A program made the translations under genes and the position numbers. The notes below the pieces were generated by a model that saw nothing but the letters and a program-made list of their open reading frames with translations, ran no database searches and was not told the origin of the DNA. This document shows positions 11,432 to 57,001 of a DNA stretch of 64,000 nt, piece by piece. The first letter of the stretch is position 1; every line of letters begins with the position of its first letter. The DNA lies in IMG/VR virus record IMGVR_UViG_3300022752_000020, positions 95,921 to 159,920 of that record. One strand, given 5' to 3'. The stretch is from a virus.

Positions 11432-14400
11432 ATGTCATCCACTGATAGACAAAATAGATTGCTTGTAGCCGAAGATTGGAAGAGGATCTATCAAAGTTTC
11501 AAAAACGCTGATTTTACCAGCTATGATTTTGAAAATTTGCGTAGAGTAATGATAAACTATCTTCGTGAAAACTATCCTGAAGATTTTAATGACTATATTG
11601 AAAGCAGTGAATATCTAGCACTCATAGACATGATTGCTTTTTTAGGTCAAAGTTTTGCCTTTCGTGTGGACCTAAATGCTCGTGAAAACTTTCTAGAACT
11701 AGCAGAACGTAGAGAAAGTATATTAAGATTAGCACGTACTCTAAGTTATAATGCTAAACGTAATAAACCAGCTACTGGTTTACTAAAATGGGAAAGTATT
11801 AGTACCACTGAAGATGTTATAGATAGTAATGGACGTAACATCAGTAATCAAGAAATTGCTTGGAATGATCCTAGTAACGCTAATTGGTTAGATCAGTTTA
11901 TTAGAATAATTAATGCGGCATTGCCTATGACTGCACAATTTGGTAGCCCAGACTCATCAGAAAAAATATTCAATATACCTACTGAACAATATAGATTGCA
12001 AACTGTAGGAACAAGCGTGCCTGTATATGCTTTTACCAAGGCAGTTGACGGTCGTAATATGAATTTTGAACTAGTAAGTACAGTGATCAAAGATAATAAT
12101 ATCGAAGAAGAACCACCATTAGCTGGACGTAGACTAAGTTTTATATACCGAGATGATGGTAAAGGTGCAGCCAGCAACAGTAACGGTTTCTTTTTATTGT
12201 TCAAACAAGGTGGATTGAATACGGGTACATTTACATTAAGTGAACCAACAACTAATGAAATAGTAGATATTGATGCAACTAATATAAATGATAGTGATGT
12301 ATGGTTATACAAACTCAATGCCAACGGTAGTGAAAGCGAATACTGGGACAAAGTTACAAACTTTGAAGCTAATAATATTATCTATAACAGTGTAAAAAAG
12401 AATATAAAAAATATCTATAATATTATTACTAGAACTAATGATAGAATAAGTTTAGTTTTTAGTGATGGCGTATTCGGTAATCTTCCATTAGGTACTTTTA
12501 GAATATATTATAGAACTAGTAATGGTGTAAGCTATACAATTAATCCAAAAGATATGCGTAGTGTCAGTGTAGATGTAAGTTATCTATCAAATACAGGGCA
12601 ATTAGAAGTATTAAGCATAGCGATGAGTCTACAAACCAGTGTATCTAACAGCAGTCCTAGCGAAAGTGATGATGAAATTAAGGCTAAGGCTCCTGCTACA
12701 TACTATACTCAAAATAGAATGATCACAGCGGAGGATTATAATATTAGTCCTCTAAGTGTAGATCAAGATGTTTTAAAAATTAAAGCTGTTAATAGATCAA
12801 GTAGTGGTATCAGTAGATATTTTGATCTTATAGATCCAACAGGCAAATACAGTAGTACTGATTTATTCAGTGATGATGGTATAATTTATAGAGAAGAATA
12901 TGAAGACAGTTTTAGATTTACCTATAAAAATCGTGTAGATATACAGGCTGTAATTATAAATCAAGTGTTACCTTATCTAAGTAAAATCAGCATTCGTAAT
13001 TATTATTATCAAAAATTTGGTAGAATTGTTTTAGATTTAAGTGCTGAATCACGCATCATATGGCAGCAAAATACTGAAGGTACAAATTATAGCACAGGTA
13101 AATTTAAAAATAATGATCAAGTTATACTTGGATATAATTCAAATAATACATTTAAAAGTTTAGAGTCAGGTGCTTTATTAAAATTTGTTGCTCCTGATAA
13201 TTATGCTTTTTTACGCTCAGAAAATAATAGATTAGTAAATTCAAACTTACCTAACACTACCAAATACATTTGGGCTAAACTAGTAACTATAACCAATGAT
13301 GGGTTAGTTGAAAGTTTAGATGATGGTAGCGGACCTATCACATTAAATGAAAAAATTCCTAATAATGCCATAATCACTGAAATTATACCAAAATGGACTA
13401 TAACATTAGATGACGTCACAGTAACATTAATGAATGATTTAATATTCAATAATAGAGACTTTGGTCTACGTTATGATTTAGATACAAAAACTTGGCAATT
13501 AATATTTGATACTAACTTAAATCTTGTAGATCCCTTCAATATAGGAAGAACTGGAGATATTAGCAATCAAAAATTAGATAGTAGTTGGTTATTGAGTTTT
13601 ACTACAGATACAGAAAAATATACTGTACTCAGTCGTAACCTAAGTTACATATTTGAAAGTGATAAAAAAATTAGATTTTATTATGATAAAACTAACAAAG
13701 TTTTTGACACTAAAACTAATAAAATTATAAAAGATAAAATTAGTATTTTAAACATTAATACTATTCCAGATTCGCCTTATACACCTTTAAATTATTCAAT
13801 AGATTGGGAAATAATAAATGAATTTATTGGTAATGATGGATACATCGACACCAAGAAAATTGAAATTACCTTTAAAGACTCCAATGATGATGGTGTTGTA
13901 GATGATCCAGATATTTTTAACTTAGTTGTAAGTCCTAGTACTACTGATCTTTATAAATTTGTTGTGCTTAAAAAGTATGAAACAAGTACAGGACAAATAG
14001 ATTACGCTTGGATTGAAAATATAGGTTCTGACGGAAATATATTAATTCATATAGCTAATACTTTTACTAATATTCCATCTAATTATTTTATAGATAAAAA
14101 ATATGTTTATGTCTATGATACAGATACATTATTTCAATATGACATGCTTTTAAATAAATTTGTAGTAAGTTTGGACTATAAAGTATACCAAGGACGTAAA
14201 GGTCTTAAATTCCATTATATACACAGTGCTGATTATGAAGCCAGAATTGATCCAGGTTATAGCAATTTTATGGATCTATATGTTTTAACCAAACAATATG
14301 ATATTAGTTTTAGACAATGGCTATTAGGTAGTATAGATCAAGAGCCCATGCCGCCTAGTACAGATCAATTGGCTATAACATTAGGTAGTAAATTGGAACA

Positions 14401-45929: not shown

Positions 45930-47114
45930 ATGAATACAGTTGATGATTTAATTTATTCTTTAAAACAAATAGGTTTCGATAATATCAATTCATCCATACC
46001 TCTTAAAGATAGAAAAATACTGAAAAATATATCATCTATGATGACTAAGGATTTGTATATTACGGAATCCCAATCTAATCTAGTATTAAAAATCTTAAAA
46101 GAAAATCAAGAACACTTAGGAAATTTTAAAGACTCTGTGCTAGAATTATTGGCAATGCCAATGTGGAAAAAAGAATTTAGAGTTAATGAAAAAATTCGTC
46201 AAATCTCACTAAAATACTCAAAAAATGAGGAAGCACAAATTCTAGTTGAATTTAGTTTTGATAAAGAAATCAAAAAAATATTGTCTATTATTAACTCTCA
46301 ATTGAAATATGAAAAGCATGATTTAAATAATAAAGGCTACATATACTCATTGTCAGAAAAAAATATAGTAACTTTATATGATCAGTTGTCCCCACTAAAA
46401 TTTAAGTTTTCCGATGATTTTTTGGAATTATATGAAAAAATTTCTAAACTTGATTTAAAACAAGTCCAAGAAAAATTTGAATTTGACCACCTTTATAAGA
46501 GTAAATTAGAACCAAATAATCATAAAATAGATACTACTAACCAGTTAATTGTTTTAGATCAAAAAATACGGTACCAGTACAATTTCAATGGTGAGTTTGA
46601 CGAAAATACAAAAAATAGTTTAGAATATAAGATAGCCAACAGAGTACAAAATAAAGTTTTTATCAATAGTAACATAGTCAATTTTAATACTCTTTTAACC
46701 GCACTGTCTAATCTTAGTAGAAATCGAATTTTGATAATTTTTGACGATTTTTCACCTATCAATAGTATACATTCAATTGAAAAATTGATAAAATTTTTAG
46801 AGTCAAATATTCAAGAATATAATACTGGAATTTATTTTAGATTTGATAACAAACAAGAAGGACTAGCATTTAACAAGATTATATCACAATATTCACTGAA
46901 TAAAAAATTAGATAACGATACTGACATAGTAGGTATTGGTAATGGAAAACTACCAAAATTCATGCTACACAGTAGTTGGTATCCAGATGCTGTAATCAGT
47001 TTTACCAATAGCCTTAGAAACAATAAATGTGATGTTTATTGTAATGACTGTGACCTGATAATTTATCATTTACCTGTAAAGCCATTAATATCAAATGTAC
47101 ATGAAATCCTGTAA
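45930..47114 (+). CDS. Unknown protein at head of the UvsW operon
   Basis: A 394-residue lysine- and asparagine-rich protein without a recognised catalytic motif. Residues about 95-165 (ILVEFSFDKEIKKILSIINS, then GYIYSLSEKNIVTLYDQL) resemble, loosely, the HARP-type annealing-helicase accessory fold, in which a protein strand is followed by a K-x-W/Y box. The C-terminal part (RILIIFDDFSPIN) looks like a degenerate nucleotide-binding fold without Walker A. It overlaps UvsW by 20 bases. A helicase-partner role is inferred from position only. No leader or ribosome site is seen. Confidence 0.6.
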   Translation: MNTVDDLIYSLKQIGFDNINSSIPLKDRKILKNISSMMTKDLYITESQSNLVLKILKENQEHLGNFKDSVLELLAMPMWKKEFRVNEKIRQISLKYSKNEEAQILVEFSFDKEIKKILSIINSQLKYEKHDLNNKGYIYSLSEKNIVTLYDQLSPLKFKFSDDFLELYEKISKLDLKQVQEKFEFDHLYKSKLEPNNHKIDTTNQLIVLDQKIRYQYNFNGEFDENTKNSLEYKIANRVQNKVFINSNIVNFNTLLTALSNLSRNRILIIFDDFSPINSIHSIEKLIKFLESNIQEYNTGIYFRFDNKQEGLAFNKIISQYSLNKKLDNDTDIVGIGNGKLPKFMLHSSWYPDAVISFTNSLRNNKCDVYCNDCDLIIYHLPVKPLISNVHEIL

Positions 47115-48567
47115 ATTAATAATAAAAGATGAAGTAAACATTAAATTTGAGGGGTTGCCATTAGAAGCACGTCGTAAGTTAGCCAACACCTTCAAATATG
47201 TATTGCCCTATGCACGTTTCCAACCTGCTTACAAGTTAGGACGTTGGGATGGTACAACTAGCCTATTTGGTATTGGAGGATCAGGGTACTTAACACACAT
47301 AGAAAAAATACTTGGGGTATTGGATTCTATGGATATCGAAGTAACTGATATTGAAGATCACAGATCCAGTAAACAAATCAGTTTTACTCCGGTAACTGAA
47401 ACATATTGGGCTGATCAGGGTAAGGTATGGCCTAAAGGTCATCAACAAGAAGGTCAACCTATATTGCTACGTGACTATCAAGTAGATGCTATAAACAATT
47501 TCCTTCAATATCATCAAAGCCTACAAGAGATTGCTACTGGTGCTGGTAAAACTATTACCACTGCTACTTTAAGCCAACTATGTGAGCCATATGGAAGGAC
47601 TATCACCATAGTACCAAACAAAAGTCTAGTTGAACAAACTGAAGAAGATTTTCGTAATGTAGGATTGGATGTTGGTGTGTATTATGGTGATCGTAAAGAA
47701 TTAAATTGTACGCATACAATATGCACTTGGCAAAGTTTAAACATATTGGATAAAAAAAGTAAAAATGGAGAAACAGATCAACTTACATTGGCTGAATTTT
47801 TAGATGGGGTTACTGCTGTAATTGTTGACGAAGTACACATGGCCAAAGCAGAGGTATTGAAAAATTTGTTAACACGTAACCTAAATAATGCTTGTATACG
47901 TTGGGGCCTAACTGGAACTGTGCCTAAAGAACCTTATGAACATGAACAAATTTTCGCCAGTATCGGTCCACTAGTTGGTGGCATTAAAGCTAGTGAATTA
48001 CAAGAGCGAGGAGTCCTTAGTAATTGTCATGTGAACATTGTACAACTTGTTGACTTACCTGAATTTAAAAATTATGCAGATGAACTAAAGTATCTTGTTA
48101 CAGATGAAACTAGGATGATTTATATTAGCAAATTTATTAAGAATGTAGCAGAGAAAGGCAATACATTAGTATTAGTAAATAGAATTGACACAGGCAAATT
48201 TATAGTAAATGAATTAGAAGGCAGCGTATTCATATCAGGCAATGTAAAGACAAAAGATAGGAAAGAAGAATATGACGAAGTGGCAACGAGTCAAAATAAA
48301 GTCATCGTCGCAACCTACGGTGTGGCGGCAGTTGGCATCAATATTCCTCGCATTTTTAATTTGGTTCTTATTGAGTCTGGCAAGTCCTTTGTACGTGTTA
48401 TACAAAGCATTGGCAGGGGTATCCGTCGAGCGGAGGACAAAGACCATGTTGAAATCTGGGATGTAACCAGCACCTGTAAGTTCAGCAAACGACATCTTAC
48501 AGAACGTAAAAAATATTATAAGGAAGCCCAATATCCATTCAGTATTCAAAAAATGGACTGGCAATAA
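47095..48567 (+). CDS. uvsW: ATP-dependent RNA-DNA/DNA helicase UvsW
   Basis: A 490-residue superfamily 2 helicase. The N-terminal 110 residues are the UvsW-type DNA-binding domain (YARFQPAYKLGRWDG). Then come the Q-like LLRDYQ, Walker A ATGAGKTI (near 150), motif II VDEVHM (near 246), motif III LTGT and motif VI QSIGRGIRRAED (near 440). UvsW unwinds R-loops and drives branch migration when the phage switches from origin- to recombination-dependent replication. A second ATG at 47101 is an equally possible start. Full length compared with T4 (about 500). Confidence 0.93.
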   Translation: MYMKSCKLIIKDEVNIKFEGLPLEARRKLANTFKYVLPYARFQPAYKLGRWDGTTSLFGIGGSGYLTHIEKILGVLDSMDIEVTDIEDHRSSKQISFTPVTETYWADQGKVWPKGHQQEGQPILLRDYQVDAINNFLQYHQSLQEIATGAGKTITTATLSQLCEPYGRTITIVPNKSLVEQTEEDFRNVGLDVGVYYGDRKELNCTHTICTWQSLNILDKKSKNGETDQLTLAEFLDGVTAVIVDEVHMAKAEVLKNLLTRNLNNACIRWGLTGTVPKEPYEHEQIFASIGPLVGGIKASELQERGVLSNCHVNIVQLVDLPEFKNYADELKYLVTDETRMIYISKFIKNVAEKGNTLVLVNRIDTGKFIVNELEGSVFISGNVKTKDRKEEYDEVATSQNKVIVATYGVAAVGINIPRIFNLVLIESGKSFVRVIQSIGRGIRRAEDKDHVEIWDVTSTCKFSKRHLTERKKYYKEAQYPFSIQKMDWQ

Positions 48568-48569
48568 TC

Positions 48570-49076
48570 ATGCAAATACTAACATTAGAAAACAAATTAT
48601 TCTCATTAAACAATTTACCAGACGAAGTAGATGAAAACACAAGATTCGCTGTATTAGACAATAGTGATCCAAAAAATCCAGACTTCTTCTTTGTACCATT
48701 GATATTTTTAGAAAGTTTTAACAGCCCAGCTATAGTGTTAAAAATAGGTGATCAAGAAATCAGTATGCCTATAGATTGGAGCATTGTTGTAGGAGATGGC
48801 ACTAGCAGTGTGGACGCTGAAATATTACCTCTAACTAGCCTAAATGATCGAGGATTTGATGCTGTAATTTTTAACCCTTTGAGCAGTTTCAAAATTGAAT
48901 ATAAGCCAATTGAGATTGTAAATTTTTATAATGATGTCAAATGGTATTTTCCTAAAATGCGTAATAACCATTTACTAGTAACTCCATTGAATTACGAAGA
49001 AAAGCCAGAATGTGCATTTTTTGTTAAAGAAGTAAGTAGGCAAAGTGAGCTGATTGATATTGGTAGGATTCTTTGA
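48570..49076 (+). CDS. Conserved small phage protein, unknown
   Basis: A 168-residue acidic, mainly beta protein (RFAVLDNSDPKNPDFFFVPL and a repeated hydrophobic-strand pattern). No motif with a known function. It starts two bases after uvsW and ends in a TGATG junction with the next gene, so it belongs to the replication operon. A small accessory factor of recombination or transcription is possible but not shown. Confidence 0.6.
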   Translation: MQILTLENKLFSLNNLPDEVDENTRFAVLDNSDPKNPDFFFVPLIFLESFNSPAIVLKIGDQEISMPIDWSIVVGDGTSSVDAEILPLTSLNDRGFDAVIFNPLSSFKIEYKPIEIVNFYNDVKWYFPKMRNNHLLVTPLNYEEKPECAFFVKEVSRQSELIDIGRIL

Positions 49077-49303
49077 TGGGGGAGATTTTTGAAAGTCCAG
49101 ACGGTGGTCATACAGTATATGTAAGGAAACCTAATAGCACCGAAAGAGCTCTTGTCAGTATGGATCAATATGCTATAGATAGGAGAAATCAATTAGAATG
49201 GAATGAAATATGGTATAAAAAAGATTCCAACCCTGCTTTACAAAAGGCTGTTGAACGTGTTATAATGATCTATAGATTAGGTAAAGAAGATGGCAAAACT
49301 TGA
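49076..49303 (+). CDS. Small conserved protein, unknown
   Basis: A 75-residue protein starting at ATG 49076, which overlaps the upstream TGA by one base. It begins MGEIFESPDGGHTVYVRKPN and is otherwise helical and charged. The end overlaps the next gene by 14 bases. No family is recognised; it is kept because of the operon spacing and natural amino-acid composition. Confidence 0.6.
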   Translation: MGEIFESPDGGHTVYVRKPNSTERALVSMDQYAIDRRNQLEWNEIWYKKDSNPALQKAVERVIMIYRLGKEDGKT

Positions 49304-49754
49304 ATTAAAAGACATACTCAGTGCAGTAGATCAAGGCGGTAAAGACCTTTGGGATTTATTCACTGATGAACAAAAAAAGAGCGTAAGTTTCTTTTTATTG
49401 AACAGATATGTTAGTAGTGTAAAAACTAGTAAAAGAGAAGTTCAAGAACACTATGTATTATCAACAAACGAATTTTATAATAAACACTGGTCATTGTTTA
49501 ATAAACATCCTAAATTACTTTGGCAGTTATTGTGTTGTTGTGGATATGAAAATAAACAAGAATATTTTCATGAATGGATTGGTTTTAAAAAGAAAAAGGG
49601 CGAAACTAAAAAATTAAAATTTTTACAGGATATATATCCAGATAGAAAACTGTGTGACCTAGAAATCCTAGCTGAAATCAATGGTGTGAAAGAACTTAAA
49701 AATTTAGCTAAAGACTTAGGTTGGGACGATTCACAAATTCAAAAATATTTTTAA
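49290..49754 (+). CDS. Small helical replication-operon protein, unknown
   Basis: A 154-residue protein, mostly helical, with KLLWQLLCCCGYENKQEYFHEWIGFKKKKG and a C-terminal helix (ELKNLAKDLGWDDSQIQKYF) that looks like a partner-binding tail. T4 clamp-loader subunit gp62 was considered because of size and helical style, but the gene is not next to gp44 or gp45 and the likeness is weak. The zinc-finger gene starts on its last base (TAATG). Confidence 0.55.
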   Translation: MAKLELKDILSAVDQGGKDLWDLFTDEQKKSVSFFLLNRYVSSVKTSKREVQEHYVLSTNEFYNKHWSLFNKHPKLLWQLLCCCGYENKQEYFHEWIGFKKKKGETKKLKFLQDIYPDRKLCDLEILAEINGVKELKNLAKDLGWDDSQIQKYF

Positions 49755-50434
49755 TGAATCAAGCATTTATTTGTAATCATTGTCAAAGTAAATTTACTAA
49801 GGAAAAAACTTTGATGGTGCATATGTGTGAACAAAAAAGACGCCATTTTGCTAAAAATGAAAAACATGTACAAATGGGCTTTCTAAGCTATTGTAGATTT
49901 TACAAATTATCACAGAAATTTGAAGGACAAAAAAGTTATGATGATTTTGCTAGAAGCCAATATTATAACGCTTTTGTTAAATTTGGTAGCTTTCTACACA
50001 ATGTAAATCCTTTGTATCCAGAATATTTTATTGATTATGTAGTGGTCAGTGGAGTAAAACTTGATCACTGGTGTAATGAAAAATTATATGAATCCTATGT
50101 TCTTGAACTAATAAAAAACGAAAGTGTAGAAACTGCACTGCAAAGAAGCATAGCTACTATGATGGATTGGGCAGATGATCATAGTAGCATATGGAATCAT
50201 TATTTTCTATACGCTAGCCCGACTAGAGCTACCTTTGATATTAAAGATGGAAAAGTGAGTCCTTGGCTATTGTTAAATAGTACTGGTGGTAGAAAATTAT
50301 TAACACAATTTAGCGATGAACAGTTAGCAGAACTCAGTAATACTATAGATCCAGAATTTTGGGTTAAAAAGTTTCGTTCAAACTCAGATGATCTTGATCT
50401 AGTCAAACATGTTGTAAAGGAACATAACTTATGA
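49754..50434 (+). CDS. N-terminal zinc-finger protein, unknown
   Basis: Residues 5-25 form a C2H2/C2HC-like finger: CNHC, then HMCEQKRRH, which should bind DNA or protein. The remaining 200 residues are helical (AFVKFGSFLHNVNPLYPEYF, DWADDHSSIWNHYF) without known catalytic residues. The start is ATG 49754, overlapping the upstream stop; the long in-frame extension upstream has no ribosome site. It overlaps the next small gene by four bases. Placement between UvsW and primase suggests a replication accessory role. Confidence 0.6.
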   Translation: MNQAFICNHCQSKFTKEKTLMVHMCEQKRRHFAKNEKHVQMGFLSYCRFYKLSQKFEGQKSYDDFARSQYYNAFVKFGSFLHNVNPLYPEYFIDYVVVSGVKLDHWCNEKLYESYVLELIKNESVETALQRSIATMMDWADDHSSIWNHYFLYASPTRATFDIKDGKVSPWLLLNSTGGRKLLTQFSDEQLAELSNTIDPEFWVKKFRSNSDDLDLVKHVVKEHNL

Positions 50435-50607
50435 GTACTGAAGTAAAAGAAATACCATTAGACATAGAAGTTAGGCTAGTCGAAGAAGATAAGGCAGTTT
50501 ACGTACAGTTCACTGGTTTTGAAACTGTAGAGGATGCTAAGGAATATACTGAATTTTTGGCAGATAATTTACCATTACTAATGTTTAACAGTGAGGTCAA
50601 GCACTGA
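50431..50607 (+). CDS. 58-residue acidic protein, unknown
   Basis: ATG 50431 overlaps the preceding TGA (ATGA) and the TGA at 50605-50607 overlaps the next ATG. The product is acidic (DIEVRLVEEDKAVYVQFTGF, then a helix EDAKEYTEFLADNLP). Strict coupling on both sides supports a real gene. It lies directly before the DnaE-like gene, so it might be a partner of it. Confidence 0.65.
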   Translation: MSTEVKEIPLDIEVRLVEEDKAVYVQFTGFETVEDAKEYTEFLADNLPLLMFNSEVKH

Positions 50608-51185
50608 TGCCTGACATCGACATCGATTTTGCCAATAGAGATCAAGCACTAAATTTGATACCTCATATCAAGGCAAGACGTGAAGGACCTGATGGGGTAG
50701 CTGTACATAATACAGGTATATATGTTCAAAGTATACCTTATGACCCTTTGACAAAAATAGCAGGCATAGAATACAAACAAGCCGAACAACGTGGCTATTT
50801 TAAAATAGATTTTCTCAATGTTAACATCTACAAAGATGTACAAAATGAAGCTCATTTAACACAATTAATGGAGACAGAACCACTATGGGAACTATTACTA
50901 CAAGACGAGTTTACGGATCTACTATTTCATTTGAAAGGGCATGGGACTATTCTGAAGAAGACCCAACCTACTTCCGTGGAACAATTAGCTGCCGTCCTCG
51001 CTATGATCCGACCATCCAAGAGGCACTTGATTGGAAAATCATGGCCCGAGATCATGATGGAAGTTTGGACGAAACCAGAGAATGACGAGTATTATTTTAA
51101 GAAGCCACATGCTGTAGCCTATGCTATGGCTGTAGTAGTACAGATGAATTTAATTTGTGAAAGCTTGAGTTATGATTATAGTTAG
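50607..51185 (+). CDS. Miniature DnaE/PolC-like protein (DNA polymerase III alpha palm remnant)
   Basis: The 192-residue protein reads as a condensed C-family polymerase core. PDIDIDF (2-8) matches the DnaE PDxDxDF catalytic motif; GYFKIDFLNVN (63-73) matches KFDFLGL with the third catalytic Asp (here Asp68); LFHLKGHGTILKKTQP, then LAMIRP (106-136) matches VFQLESRGM...LVALFRP; YYFKKPHAVAYAMAV (162-176) matches FNKSHSAAYAL. The upstream GRGSAAGS nucleotide motif, PHP domain and beta-binding region are absent. So it keeps the metal-site residues but probably cannot polymerise alone. It lies in the replication operon. Confidence 0.7.
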   Translation: MPDIDIDFANRDQALNLIPHIKARREGPDGVAVHNTGIYVQSIPYDPLTKIAGIEYKQAEQRGYFKIDFLNVNIYKDVQNEAHLTQLMETEPLWELLLQDEFTDLLFHLKGHGTILKKTQPTSVEQLAAVLAMIRPSKRHLIGKSWPEIMMEVWTKPENDEYYFKKPHAVAYAMAVVVQMNLICESLSYDYS

Positions 51186-51556
51186 ATCTTTCTAACTAAT
51201 TCAACACTACGACGTTTAGCTCTTTTTAAACTCATATTAAGTAAGTTTACTGTGGGACCTAATACTATACGAACACCTTTACTATTGAAAGTTTTAATAC
51301 AATATTTGAATATATCTATCTCAGCTTTCAAAAATATATTGATGGGTATTTGACGATTACTTTCCCACCACCAAGTTTCGCCCATCAGAATGAATTGATT
51401 TTTTTCTTCTGGTGTTCGTATAGCATCAATATCGTAGAAAGTTGTAACAAATTGATCTTGATTAATTATGATCCCAACATATTCCTGCTCACCATAGTTT
51501 AACACGCTGATAAAGGGTAATTGCTCTTTTGTTGTATCTCTTAGCTTTTTAGCCAT
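51182..51556 (-). CDS. Small conserved phage protein, unknown (opposite strand)
   Basis: A 124-residue protein in the otherwise plus-strand replication block. It starts MAKKLRDTTKEQLPFISVLN, has an aromatic stretch (MGETWWWESNRQIPINIFLK) and ends with a basic helix (NMSLKRAKRRSVELVRKI). Its 3' end overlaps the DnaE-like gene by four bases and its ATG abuts the late octamer of the next gene. No ribosome site or function is recognised. Confidence 0.6.
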   Translation of the reverse strand: MAKKLRDTTKEQLPFISVLNYGEQEYVGIIINQDQFVTTFYDIDAIRTPEEKNQFILMGETWWWESNRQIPINIFLKAEIDIFKYCIKTFNSKGVRIVLGPTVNLLNMSLKRAKRRSVELVRKI

Positions 51557-52402: not shown

Positions 52403-53374
52403 ATGAACCTTATTGCTGATACTATATTAAGTCATTTACCTTACAGTCGAAAGACCACTCCAAGTGGATGGATCAGCTTTAATGCTATTTGTTGTAGTGA
52501 TCGTCGTAATAGAGGCGGCTTCATTATAGATGGGGAAAGTTTAAGTTACCACTGTTTTAACTGTGGATTTAAGGCAAGTTGGCAACCAGGGCGTAGTATT
52601 AGTGTAAAAATGAGACAGTTGCTACAATTATTATCAGTACCAACAGATATAATCAGTAAAATATATATTGAAGCAATGCGTCTTAAAGATACAGAAATAG
52701 TTGAACAAGAATTACATGTTCCAAAGTTTGTACCTAAGACATTACCCAGAGGTAGCAAACGAATCATTGATTTACTTGATGACCCAAGCGACCAATTAAT
52801 ATCAGTGATAGAATATATATACAGTAGAGCTTTGACCTTAGAGGACTATGATTTTTATTGGAGTTCAGAAGAAGGTTTTGACAATAGATTAATTATTCCC
52901 TATTACTTTAGAAATCAAATTGTAGGATATACCTGTAGAAGAATTGATGAAGGTAAGGCAAAATATCTAGCAGAGCAACAACCAGGTTATGTGTTCAATT
53001 TAGATCGTCAAAATTATCATAGACAATTTATTATTGTTTGTGAAGGGCAGTTTGATGCTATTAGTATAGATGGAGTTGCTGTAATGAGTAACGAAATCAA
53101 TAAACAACAAAGTATGTTAATTAATCAATTAGGTAAAAAAGTTGTTGTTGTTCCTGATAGAGATCAAGCAGGTTTAAAAATTATAGAAAGTGCATTAGAC
53201 AATAATTATAAGGTAAGTATGCCAGATTGGGATAATGATATAAAAGATATTAACGATGCAGTTAAATATTATGGCAAACTAAAAACTCTTTTGATTATTA
53301 AAAATGCAATATTAGAAAGTGAATTAAAAATTAAACTTAGGAGCAGAGAATGGTTAAAATCTTTAGAATTTTGA
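52403..53374 (+). CDS. 61: DNA primase gp61
   Basis: A 323-residue DnaG-type primase. The N-terminal zinc site is CC (30-31) with YHCFNCGF (49-56); the Toprim domain begins with FIIVCEGQFDAISIDG (about 210) and continues VVPDRDQAGLKI (about 250). It makes RNA primers for the gp41 helicase fork; gp41 lies two genes downstream. The AAGG element is unusually close to the ATG. The length is close to T4 gp61 (342). Confidence 0.92.
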   Translation: MNLIADTILSHLPYSRKTTPSGWISFNAICCSDRRNRGGFIIDGESLSYHCFNCGFKASWQPGRSISVKMRQLLQLLSVPTDIISKIYIEAMRLKDTEIVEQELHVPKFVPKTLPRGSKRIIDLLDDPSDQLISVIEYIYSRALTLEDYDFYWSSEEGFDNRLIIPYYFRNQIVGYTCRRIDEGKAKYLAEQQPGYVFNLDRQNYHRQFIIVCEGQFDAISIDGVAVMSNEINKQQSMLINQLGKKVVVVPDRDQAGLKIIESALDNNYKVSMPDWDNDIKDINDAVKYYGKLKTLLIIKNAILESELKIKLRSREWLKSLEF

Positions 53375-53475
53375 TATATTATGTCACTTATCCATATTAT
53401 TATCTAAAAGAAAAACAAAGAATAAAAAAGAGACTTGAGGAATTAAGAAAACAAGATCCGTTTATATACAAATGA
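53350..53475 (+). CDS. 41-residue basic protein, unknown
   Basis: ATG 53350 has a clean AGGAG seven bases upstream, inside the end of the primase gene in another frame, and the TGA (53473-53475) overlaps the next ATG. The product has a tyrosine-rich hydrophobic start (FRILIYYVTYPYYYLK) and a basic helix (RIKKRLEELRKQDPFIYK). It fills the primase-carbamoyltransferase gap exactly and is very probably translated. Function unknown. Confidence 0.7.
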   Translation: MVKIFRILIYYVTYPYYYLKEKQRIKKRLEELRKQDPFIYK

Positions 53476-54932
53476 TTTATTGGGGTGTCAATGCTAATAA
53501 CCACGACAGTAGTCTGTCAATAGTATCTGATAATCAGATATTATTTGCTGCTCATAGTGAACGTTATAGTAAAATTAAGAACGATAGTGATATAGATTCT
53601 AATTTGATAAAAGCAGCATTAGAATATGGACCTCCCAATCTAATCATTCAACACGAAAATCCTTGGAATAAAAGTTTAAGACAATTTTTAGCTGGACAAG
53701 GTATCATTAATAATTCTTTAAAAAAATATTTTAAAGATCATACTAAATCAAAAATTATTAATGTTAATCATCACCTAAGCCATGCTGCTGCTGGATATTT
53801 TACTAGTGGGTTTGATCGAGCCTGTGTACTTGTAATAGATGCTATAGGTGAATTTGAAACTTTGAGTATTTGGCAGGCAGAAGGATCTAAACTAATTAAA
53901 AAATTTAGTTTAAAATATCCTAATAGTATAGGTCTTTGGTACAGTGCTATGACAGATCGTATTGGTCTTAAACCTAACGAAGAAGAATATATATTAATGG
54001 GTATGGCTGCTTTTGGTGACCCTAATAGATTTTATTTTGATATTTTTGATGATTTCTTTACTCATGCATCCTATTCAAATATAAAATTTAAAAAAAATCT
54101 ACATCGTGGCTGTAAAGATTGGAAGACTGATCTGAAATCAAAACAAGATTTATTTGATATTGCTGCCTCTACTCAATGTGTTTATGAAAAAGTATTTGAT
54201 TTTACATTGAATAAGGCTAGGTCTTTGGTACCTAGTAAAAATCTAGTATTAATGGGAGGTTGTGCTCTTAATTGTAGTGCTAACTCTATAGCATTTGAAT
54301 ATTTTAATGATATTTGGATTATGCCTAATCCTGGTGATGCAGGTAGTAGTTTGGGCGCAATTTTAGCACATACAAGAAAAAACATAGGATGGAAAGATGC
54401 ATTTCTAGGACATAATATAGAACCTACAACAGATGTTAATCAAATAGTCGATTATCTAATTGAACATAAAATATGTGGGGTAGCTCAAGGTAGAGAAGAA
54501 TTTGGTCCGAGAGCTTTCGGAAATCGTAGCTTACTTGCTGATCCAAGAGGTCCTGATATTAAGGACCGTGTTAATCAAATAAAACGTAGACAAGAATTTA
54601 GACCGTTCGCTCCTATGATACTTGAGGAATACGTTACAGAACATTTTGAAATATTGGGTTCCCCTCGACATCATAGATATATGCAATACACCAGTAGATG
54701 TAGACATCCAGAGCAATTTCCTGCTATAGTACACAAGGATGGAACAAGTCGTGTACAATCAGTACCTAAAGATGGTTCAAGAATTAGACAACTTTTAGAA
54801 TATTGGTTTTTAAAAACAGGATGCCCTATGTTGCTTAACACCAGCTTGAATATTAAAGGACAACCTCTAGTGCATGATATTAAAGATGCAGAATATTTTC
54901 AACAAACTCATAATATTAGAGTTTTTACATAA
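53472..54932 (+). CDS. Carbamoyltransferase (NodU/TobZ family)
   Basis: A 486-residue O-carbamoyltransferase. The N-terminus has the ASKHA-like start (WGVNANNHDSSLSIV) and the HHLSHAAAGYFTSGF metal/ATP motif; then VLVIDAIGE, MGGCALNCSAN and the YrdC-like C-terminal elements GREEFGPRAFGNRSLL and EFRPFAPMIL. The family carbamoylates sugars or hydroxylated substrates using carbamoyl phosphate and ATP. The phage substrate is unknown; a glycan from the nearby glycosyltransferase module or modified DNA are possible. It is somewhat shorter than bacterial relatives. Confidence 0.88.
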   Translation: MIYWGVNANNHDSSLSIVSDNQILFAAHSERYSKIKNDSDIDSNLIKAALEYGPPNLIIQHENPWNKSLRQFLAGQGIINNSLKKYFKDHTKSKIINVNHHLSHAAAGYFTSGFDRACVLVIDAIGEFETLSIWQAEGSKLIKKFSLKYPNSIGLWYSAMTDRIGLKPNEEEYILMGMAAFGDPNRFYFDIFDDFFTHASYSNIKFKKNLHRGCKDWKTDLKSKQDLFDIAASTQCVYEKVFDFTLNKARSLVPSKNLVLMGGCALNCSANSIAFEYFNDIWIMPNPGDAGSSLGAILAHTRKNIGWKDAFLGHNIEPTTDVNQIVDYLIEHKICGVAQGREEFGPRAFGNRSLLADPRGPDIKDRVNQIKRRQEFRPFAPMILEEYVTEHFEILGSPRHHRYMQYTSRCRHPEQFPAIVHKDGTSRVQSVPKDGSRIRQLLEYWFLKTGCPMLLNTSLNIKGQPLVHDIKDAEYFQQTHNIRVFT

Positions 54933-54940
54933 GGACTTAT

Positions 54941-56353
54941 ATGACTAGACAAAATGCTGATTATGGATACGACATCCAAAAAATTTATTTAGAACTTATG
55001 CTTAATGACAGCGAAACATTTGTTAGATGTCAAAGCATATTCGATCACGAACTTTTTGATCGACGATTACAACCTACAGCAAAATTTATCAATGACTATG
55101 TGGTAGAACATAATATTCTTCCAACATTTGAAATTGTTAACGCTGCAACTAAAAGTAACTTGGTAAATCCTGGTACTATTAGAATAGAACACTATGATTG
55201 GCTACTACAAGACTTTGAAACCTTTATTAGACATAAGGGACTTGAAAGAGCCATTATCCAAAGTGCAGACTTGTTGGAGAAAGGTGAATATGGCCCAGTA
55301 GAAGATCTAATTAAACGAGCAGTTCAAATTGGTCTACAGAAGGACATGGGCACTGACTACTTTTTAGATCCTAGAAGTAGGCTAATGAGTATTAAAGATA
55401 AAAATGGTCAAGTTAGCACAGGATGGACTGCTCTTGATCAAAGACTATTTGGTGGATTTAATAGAGGTGAACTTAATATCTTCGCTGGTGGTAGTGGAGC
55501 CGGTAAAAGTTTATTCCTAGCCAATCTCGGACTTAATTGGTCTATAGCAGGTCTTAATGTACTTTATGTAACATTGGAACTTAGTGAAGAACTTGTTAGT
55601 ATGCGTATTGATAGTATGGTGACAGATATACCAACTAAGGAAATTTTTAAACAAATTGACGAAGTTGAAATGCGTGTAAGAATAATAGGTAAGAAGAGTG
55701 GTAGTTATCAAATTAAGTATATGCCCAGCGGTAAAACTGCTAACGATATACGTAGCTATATGAAGGAGTTTGAAGTAAAGGCTGGACGTAAGATTGATAT
55801 CTTGCTAGTAGACTACTTAGATCTATTGATGCCTATGAGTCGTAAGATCAGTGCAGAAAATTTGTTTATCAAAGATAAATTTGTCAGTGAAGAACTTAGA
55901 AACTTGGCTGTAGAAAAGAATGTAGTACTAGTAACTGCTGCTCAATTGAACAGAGGAGCAGTTGAAGAAATTGAGTTTGATCATAGTCATATCAGTGGAG
56001 GACTCAGCAAGATTCAAACTGCTGACAATGTATTTGGTATCTTTACTAGTCGTGGTATGAGGGAAAAAGGTAGATATCAAATTCAATTGATGAAAACTCG
56101 TAGCAGTAGCGGAGTAGGTACTAAAATTGATCTTGAATTTGATATGGATACTCTACGTATTAGAGATCTTAAAGAAGAGGACATGGGTACTGAATATAAA
56201 CCGGGCAGTACAGTATTAGATACTATACGTCAACGTAGTGCTACAGTAAGAGAAGATCCCACAGAAGGTTCAAGCTTGAAGACTAGTCGAGTTGATGTAC
56301 AGACTACTAAACTTAGGCAACTACTTAATAACTTGAATACCGAAGACCTATAA
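54941..56353 (+). CDS. 41: Replicative DNA helicase gp41 (DnaB-like)
   Basis: A 470-residue RecA-fold helicase. An N-terminal helical domain (ELFDRRLQPTAKFINDYV) precedes the motor: Walker A FAGGSGAGKSLF (about 182-193), the glutamate of VTLELSEELVSMRIDS, Walker B IDILLVDYLDLL (about 287-298) and the arginine-rich end SRGMREKGRYQIQLMKTRSS. It unwinds the lagging strand with gp61. An AAGGA ribosome site lies upstream. Full length against T4 (475). Confidence 0.94.
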   Translation: MTRQNADYGYDIQKIYLELMLNDSETFVRCQSIFDHELFDRRLQPTAKFINDYVVEHNILPTFEIVNAATKSNLVNPGTIRIEHYDWLLQDFETFIRHKGLERAIIQSADLLEKGEYGPVEDLIKRAVQIGLQKDMGTDYFLDPRSRLMSIKDKNGQVSTGWTALDQRLFGGFNRGELNIFAGGSGAGKSLFLANLGLNWSIAGLNVLYVTLELSEELVSMRIDSMVTDIPTKEIFKQIDEVEMRVRIIGKKSGSYQIKYMPSGKTANDIRSYMKEFEVKAGRKIDILLVDYLDLLMPMSRKISAENLFIKDKFVSEELRNLAVEKNVVLVTAAQLNRGAVEEIEFDHSHISGGLSKIQTADNVFGIFTSRGMREKGRYQIQLMKTRSSSGVGTKIDLEFDMDTLRIRDLKEEDMGTEYKPGSTVLDTIRQRSATVREDPTEGSSLKTSRVDVQTTKLRQLLNNLNTEDL

Positions 56354-56393: not shown

Positions 56394-56678
56394 ATGGACG
56401 AGATCGGTATCATAACACAATTACTGGAAATTGGCAGCCCTATTGCGGCTGCTATTATTGCCTTTTATTTTGTATATCTTACTATAAAATTTATTCTAGC
56501 CGGCGTGACCAATAGTGTTAATGGAATGGCCAAGATCATCAGAGGATTAGATAGTAGAGTCTTTACTATGACTAATCAACTTATACAAATTGATGTTAAG
56601 GTTAGTACTGCTCTAGGGCTAAAACCAGACTATGAACGTTTGAGTAGATCCGAAATTAAGGATAAGAGAAAAGACTAA
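56394..56678 (+). CDS. Small membrane protein, holin-like
   Basis: A 94-residue protein with one strong membrane segment (PIAAAIIAFYFVYLTIKFIL, residues about 15-35) followed by a charged helical tail. The next gene encodes a protein with the same layout, so the two may work as a pair. No ribosome site is visible; CTTAAATA, a late-promoter variant, ends four bases before the ATG. Holin or inner-membrane accessory is inference from size and topology. Confidence 0.55.
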   Translation: MDEIGIITQLLEIGSPIAAAIIAFYFVYLTIKFILAGVTNSVNGMAKIIRGLDSRVFTMTNQLIQIDVKVSTALGLKPDYERLSRSEIKDKRKD

Positions 56679-57001
56679 TGAATTCAACCGATCTAATCAC
56701 ATTTATTAACAAATATGGATTTCCCATAGTGTTCTCAGGCTGCTTGGGAGCATTGATTTGGTATATTTGGAATTGGGTAACTAAAGAAATTAAACCAGTT
56801 ATCGGACAGGCCAACGAAACCCTACTTGAATTGATTGATCGAATTCGAATGTTGGACAATGACCTAATCCGACTAAATCAAAAAGTTGAAACTGTGATGG
56901 AATTGAGAGGCGAACGTATAGAAAAAGAAACCGAACAGTTTGATGACCTAATTAATAATGAGCCACCAAATAAAACTGAAAACGGGAACATACAACAGTA
57001 A
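56678..57001 (+). CDS. Small membrane protein with coiled coil (BhlA/holin-like)
   Basis: A 107-residue protein: a single membrane segment at about 14-34 (GFPIVFSGCLGALIWYIWNW), then a long coiled coil (ETLLELIDRIRMLDNDLIRL) and an acidic tail. The opening INKYGFPIVF resembles BhlA/UviB-type holin-like proteins. It starts at a TAATG junction with the preceding membrane protein. Its end overlaps the convergent gene by 54 bases. Holin-like role is likely but unproven. Confidence 0.6.
   Translation: MNSTDLITFINKYGFPIVFSGCLGALIWYIWNWVTKEIKPVIGQANETLLELIDRIRMLDNDLIRLNQKVETVMELRGERIEKETEQFDDLINNEPPNKTENGNIQQ

Follow-up and report, generated by a model that had tools for sequence, protein, structure and literature searches.

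The gene at positions 50,607 to 51,185 of the window (the whole stretch of 64,000 nucleotides that was analysed) most probably encodes one half of a minimal family C DNA polymerase, namely the C-terminal part that binds metal and template; in this lineage of large T4-like phages the enzyme comes as two separate proteins that are not spliced together. We put the probability of this reading at roughly 0.8. We refer to the protein as the C-half and to its counterpart as the N-half. The open reading frame starts with an ATG at 50607, stops with a TAG at 51183-51185 and encodes 192 amino acids. An earlier note on this DNA had described a DnaE-like protein with four family C palm and finger motifs at this place. 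Its coordinates were confirmed, and all four motifs were found in the correct order, connected by much shortened loops:

50607..51185, plus strand: probable C-half of a split minimal DNA polymerase III alpha, phrog_11778 (from the open reading frame, PHROG match, predicted fold and dN/dS)
50610..50630, plus strand: PDIDIDF, residues 2-8 (invariant in 68/68 non-redundant homologues)
50796..50813, plus strand: YFKIDF, residues 64-69 (K66 and D68 invariant; hhalign to the DnaE alignment)
50922..51014, plus strand: shortened finger segment LFHLKGHG...LAMIRP, residues 106-136 (hhalign, E=2.8e-7; R135 and P136 invariant)
51096..51134, plus strand: O-helix FKKPHAVAYAMAV, residues 164-176 (F164, H168 and Y172 invariant)

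In the first motif, D3 and D5 correspond to the metal ligands D401 and D403 of E. coli DnaE and D7 to D405; in the second, K66 corresponds to K553 and D68 to the third catalytic aspartate, D555. The finger segment aligns with about residues 608-641 of the E. coli protein, and H168 of the O-helix is the equivalent of H760, which acts as a steric gate in E. coli (PMC8485763). D3 and D68 are 65 residues apart, whereas 154 residues separate D401 and D555 (about 60 and about 150 had been given earlier). As had also been claimed, neither a GRGS segment nor a PHP domain is present in the 192-residue frame, and the thumb, beta-binding and OB domains are missing as well.

The similarity of the C-half to family C polymerases is far beyond chance. 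Comparison with the PHROG profiles yielded phrog_11778, annotated 'DNA polymerase', with E=6.2e-69 and phrog_405 (phage Pol III) with E=4.6e-8. Profile-profile alignment by hhalign, using an alignment of 69 family members as query, matched a bacterial DnaE alignment with E=2.8e-7. By hmmsearch, the four motifs were collinear in M. tuberculosis DnaE1 (E=0.0017); the lone match to the tRNA hydroxylase 8fhc in that search was judged to be due to chance. In Pfam, DNA_pol3_finger was matched below threshold (E=0.07), which is suggestive at most. An AlphaFold2 model of the C-half had a mean pLDDT of 90, and a Foldseek comparison with about 350,000 PDB chains returned Pol III alpha as all of the best eight matches (probability 0.96-1.0 in seven and 0.44 in the last). 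The TM-scores were moderate (0.33-0.49 of the query) and the E-values modest, the best being about 1e-3, which is expected for only half a domain. The relationship to the C-family palm, which had been read from the motifs, was thus borne out both by sequence profiles and by predicted structure.

In relatives of the source phage, the missing GxGRGS half is encoded by a separate gene with a product of about 170 amino acids (phrog_11127). An example is Atu_ph07 gp316, to which the genome paper (PMC6102473) gave the name Pol III alpha; it comprises 177 amino acids and ends ...GVGRGSCVSSYILYIIGVHKVNSIKYDLDFSEFLE, corresponding to DnaE sequence a few residues before PDIDIDF. The N-half family was placed on residues 323-393 of E. 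coli DnaE (hhalign, E=3e-6), and an N-half alignment to DnaE extended from GRGS to '...ERFLN' (hhalign, E=5.5e-8). The AlphaFold2 model of the N-half (pLDDT 91.9) had exclusively family C polymerases among its top 14 PDB matches. The two proteins are complementary at the break point: the 96 N-halves from IMG/VR end at '...EFLR', give or take a few residues, just before PDIDIDF, and the frames of the C-halves open only a few codons before this motif in most loci. No intein sequence occurs at the break, the N-halves in the 96 loci ending right after the DnaE segment, and neither a fused mini-DnaE nor an intermediate form was found among about 100 C-half and 96 N-half loci. A search for the PHP domain (PF02811) gave nothing in 16 of 16 records, with the control found in 14 of 14. 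Taken together, the two halves amount to about 360 residues, compared to 1160 in E. coli DnaE.

The two halves also occur together. Among GenBank isolates, 90-91 records carry the C-half and 87 the N-half, with near-identical counts per genus (C-half/N-half: Escherichia 34/34, Pseudomonas 11/11, Salmonella 8/8, Erwinia 8/8, Xanthomonas 3/3 and Klebsiella 11/10); the odd Klebsiella record is probably a partial one of 109.5 kb. For one phage of the group, Sharanji, the recorded host is the laboratory strain E. coli K-12 MG1655. Both genes were detected in the IMG/VR relatives G001, G003, G004, G005, G016, G017 and G026 as well as in Atu_ph07, RaK2 and Paride. One of the options that the earlier note had raised, one half of a split polymerase, is therefore strongly supported by a separate GxGRGS protein that ends before PDIDIDF and has the same distribution.

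The note had further proposed to look for the GRGS half in the rest of the genome. This half is a separate gene in the relatives, but in the source record none was detected using Pfam PF07733, the Atu_ph07 N-half, phrog_11127 or a motif scan. The record is a linear fragment of 159,920 bp with the C-half at 146,527. It thus holds 146.5 kb upstream of the C-half, whereas the N-half of the relatives lies 159-185 kb upstream (about 180 kb in G001, 185 kb in G003, 167 kb in G004 and 159 kb in G005). Accordingly, the fragment ends before the expected site, which suggests truncation rather than absence of the gene. PolB was also not found on the 159.9-kb fragment. It is present in G001-G005, Atu_ph07, RaK2 and Paride, at a distance upstream of the C-half of about 155 kb (G001), 158 kb (G003), 144 kb (G004), 135 kb (G005) and 162 kb (G002). 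On the 280-kb record of G002, PolB is located near 260 kb and an N-half was not found; since the N-half is usually located 23-26 kb beyond PolB, it is expected past the end of that record. Judging from these relatives, the C-half of the source phage would likewise be paired with an N-half. In Atu_ph07 and Paride, PolB is split over two reading frames, whereas RaK2 and the IMG/VR relatives have it in a single one.

At least 544 relatives of the C-half were confirmed in IMG/VR, the best 80 of which are all open frames of constant length. The closest isolate among the matches listed was Atu_ph07, with 54% identity. D3, D5, D7, K66, D68, F164, H168 and Y172 are invariant in 68/68 non-redundant homologues (<90% identical to each other), and R135 and P136 of the finger segment are also invariant. 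Pairwise dN/dS values, determined for pairs with unsaturated dS, were about 0.06-0.17. This, together with the invariance of the aspartates, the lysine and the histidine, indicates that the catalytic set of the C-half is under selection, as had been suggested for the metal-binding aspartates. Neither of the two outcomes that the earlier note had named as refuting its view, lack of a significant match to the palm or aspartates free to vary, was thus observed. Conservation is deep, extending over hundreds of phage contigs and phages of unrelated hosts. Bacterial genome contigs yielded one real stand-alone homologue, located on a 60-kb contig of a Rickettsiales MAG (NZHE01000029.1) that is probably a misbinned phage contig; the other matches examined were ordinary actinobacterial DnaE, and a stand-alone bacterial origin was rejected. 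For the C-half of Atu_ph07 (FDI40_gp074), RefSeq places the start too far downstream, at 12073, so that the catalytic DIDID motif is lost; homology begins at 12001, and a Met codon at 11992 gives a gene of 11992-12567.

The C-half gene lies in a replication context, as the motif-based description had already implied, with a UvsW-like helicase upstream and a primase and a DnaB-like helicase downstream:

47095..48567, plus strand: UvsW-like helicase, start of the syntenic block (homology, synteny)
48570..49076, plus strand: phrog_11279, conserved in the block (PHROG match, synteny)
49290..49754, plus strand: phrog_11758, conserved in the block (PHROG match, synteny)
49721..50434, plus strand: phrog_11058, possible Zn-finger N-terminus (PHROG match, synteny)
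50431..50607, plus strand: 58-amino-acid upstream open reading frame (sequence; homologues in close relatives only)
51182..51556, minus strand: convergent neighbour of 124 amino acids, phrog_11637 (E=2.5e-32)
52403..53374, plus strand: DNA primase (phrog_47, E=1.7e-45; synteny)
54941..56353, plus strand: DnaB-like replicative helicase, T4 gp41-like (phrog_19, E=4.2e-65; synteny)

The order UvsW, phrog_11279, phrog_11758, phrog_11058, C-half, phrog_11637, one further gene, primase and helicase is the same in phages of Agrobacterium, Klebsiella and Pseudomonas. The phrog_11058 product (237 amino acids) has a CxxC-type, Zn-finger-like start, and its gene is located close upstream of the C-half in six of six loci compared. 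The TGA of the 58-amino-acid frame (50605-50607) overlaps the ATG of the C-half in the sequence TGATG (50605-50609), and the two are likely to be translationally coupled. At its other end, the C-half gene is arranged tail-to-tail with the phrog_11637 gene, with a 3' overlap of 4 bp. A convergent frame overlapping or abutting the 3' end of the C-half was observed in 84 of 100 homologous loci, the overlap being 4-30 bp in nearly all, and in six loci, among them those of Atu_ph07, RaK2 and Paride, the neighbour was confirmed to be homologous. Its product is a possible partner or regulator of the C-half. A gene for a Nol-like carbamoyltransferase (53472-54932, E=1.2e-95) is located between primase and helicase and is absent at that site in Atu_ph07, RaK2 and Paride. 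Two tandem small genes at 56394-57001, encoding 94 and 107 amino acids, both belong to phrog_18771, probably as the result of a duplication.

From the residues that each protein carries, the N-half would supply the GxGRGS nucleotide-binding segment, and the C-half the catalytic aspartates, Lys66 and the finger O-helix with its steric-gate histidine. Since each half by itself contains only part of the active site, non-covalent assembly is the simplest reading: the halves would bind to each other without covalent joining and create one composite active site. This site may add deoxynucleotides to a primer, the use of dNTPs being suggested by the conserved steric gate in the light of the E. coli work. 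Next to a clamp-tethered PolB, the split Pol III might then function as a distributive second polymerase in gap filling, repair or lagging-strand finishing. This role, which we infer more weakly, is suggested by what the pair lacks: a thumb, a PHP domain, tau- and beta-binding parts and the clamp-type peptide of PolB. In the relatives, PolB terminates with an LF[DE]-type peptide that resembles the clamp peptide of T4; the C-half tails of the source lineage have no such end. A T4-type clamp peptide on the C-half was rejected, as its tail, SYxYS, which is not universal, differs from the LF[DE] type. The C-half of Paride is an exception, with a tail (DPFKLFS) that could be a clamp-type peptide. 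A DnaQ-type proofreader is present in RaK2, Atu_ph07 and Paride, but none was detected in G001 and G003, two of the long relatives, indicating that it is not a constant partner.

Some points weigh against a functional pair. The missing thumb puts the holding of primer-template in doubt, and the large distance between the two half genes does not in itself suggest a complex. It is a tentative proposal, to which we would give a little less than even odds, that the assembled pair is a functional template-dependent polymerase of about 360 residues which has neither thumb nor PHP domain and serves a task that PolB does not perform. The predicted pair would perhaps be the smallest family C polymerase.

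Many members of the Pol beta-type nucleotidyltransferase fold are not polymerases, and the two halves might form such an enzyme, either a terminal transferase or a modifier of DNA ends or of another molecule, instead of a templated polymerase. The palm does belong to this fold (PMC7824862), and the loss of the thumb and of most of the fingers, which leaves 65 residues between D3 and D68 in place of the 154 in E. coli, would fit. However, simple transfer would not need the O-helix, the steric-gate histidine and the IRP segment, all of which are invariant, and the position of the C-half gene within the UvsW-primase-helicase block also argues against it; we regard a transferase as unlikely. The earlier note had considered a decoy or regulator of host Pol III. 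It is very improbable that the C-half acts by itself in such a role, through non-catalytic binding to host Pol III, to the clamp or to DNA. The C-half is not a complete polymerase on its own, as it is devoid of the GRGS segment, but the metal ligands and the steric gate are invariant in 68/68 homologues, the GRGS partner shares its distribution, and conservation extends across phages of unrelated hosts. With the full catalytic set conserved across the two halves, both the decoy and the nuclease-like palm that had been named as a further option are the poorer explanations. The earlier note had spoken of a remnant, and the reduction from 1160 to about 360 residues in two halves could recall a bacterial dnaE that was captured and is now decaying. 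The gene is intact, however: it has at least 544 relatives in viral contigs, the best 80 of which are open and of constant length, dN/dS is about 0.06-0.17, and the loci compared (about 100 for the C-half and 96 for the N-half) contain neither intermediates nor fused forms. Decay is hardly credible.

The split polymerase reading agrees with a kind of enzyme already known since 2021, of which the source protein is a further, well-conserved example. Iyer et al. described a split minimal DNA polymerase III beside PolB in group 2.2 jumbo phages, proposed that it may model the ancestral enzyme and suggested a role on one strand or in repair (PMC7824862). The earlier note had considered a family C remnant unexpected, T4-like phages normally replicating with family B gp43; given this report the statement needs to be qualified. 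The enzyme of Iyer et al. belongs to the same family as phrog_11778 (C-half) and phrog_11127 (N-half): an NTP-binding N-protein and an Mg2+- and template-binding C-protein are encoded by distant genes in phages with PolB. A literature search yielded no biochemical study of it. The source phage differs from these examples in being uncultivated, and its IMG/VR relatives add several hundred members. As far as we found, the present analysis adds the invariance of individual residues, among them the steric gate, the position of the break in about 200 loci, the size of the family and the conserved convergent neighbour. Thus, a lineage of large T4-like phages of many unrelated bacterial hosts keeps a two-piece bacterial-type polymerase beside its own PolB. 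If active, the split Pol III would show the minimal part of DnaE needed for catalysis and would test the suggestion of an ancestral model (PMC7824862), and the conserved residues and several hundred natural variants provide material for such a test.

The DnaE proteins of E. coli, T. aquaticus and M. tuberculosis have the same fold, and the equivalents of D401, D403, K553, D555 and H760 are found in the C-half. In contrast to these enzymes, the phage pair has no PHP, thumb, beta-binding, OB and C-terminal domains, its fingers are cut down, and its catalytic core is divided between two polypeptides. Cyanobacterial DnaE is likewise encoded by two genes, and its halves are joined by a split intein; the phage N-halves, unlike it, carry no intein sequence. 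Full-length Pol III alpha of phage G and others (phrog_405) is also a family C polymerase encoded by phages, and in group 3.2 jumbo phages it is a single long protein with a PHP domain that replaces PolB (PMC7824862). The phrog_405 enzymes are single long proteins, whereas the C-half is most probably one part of a split pair.
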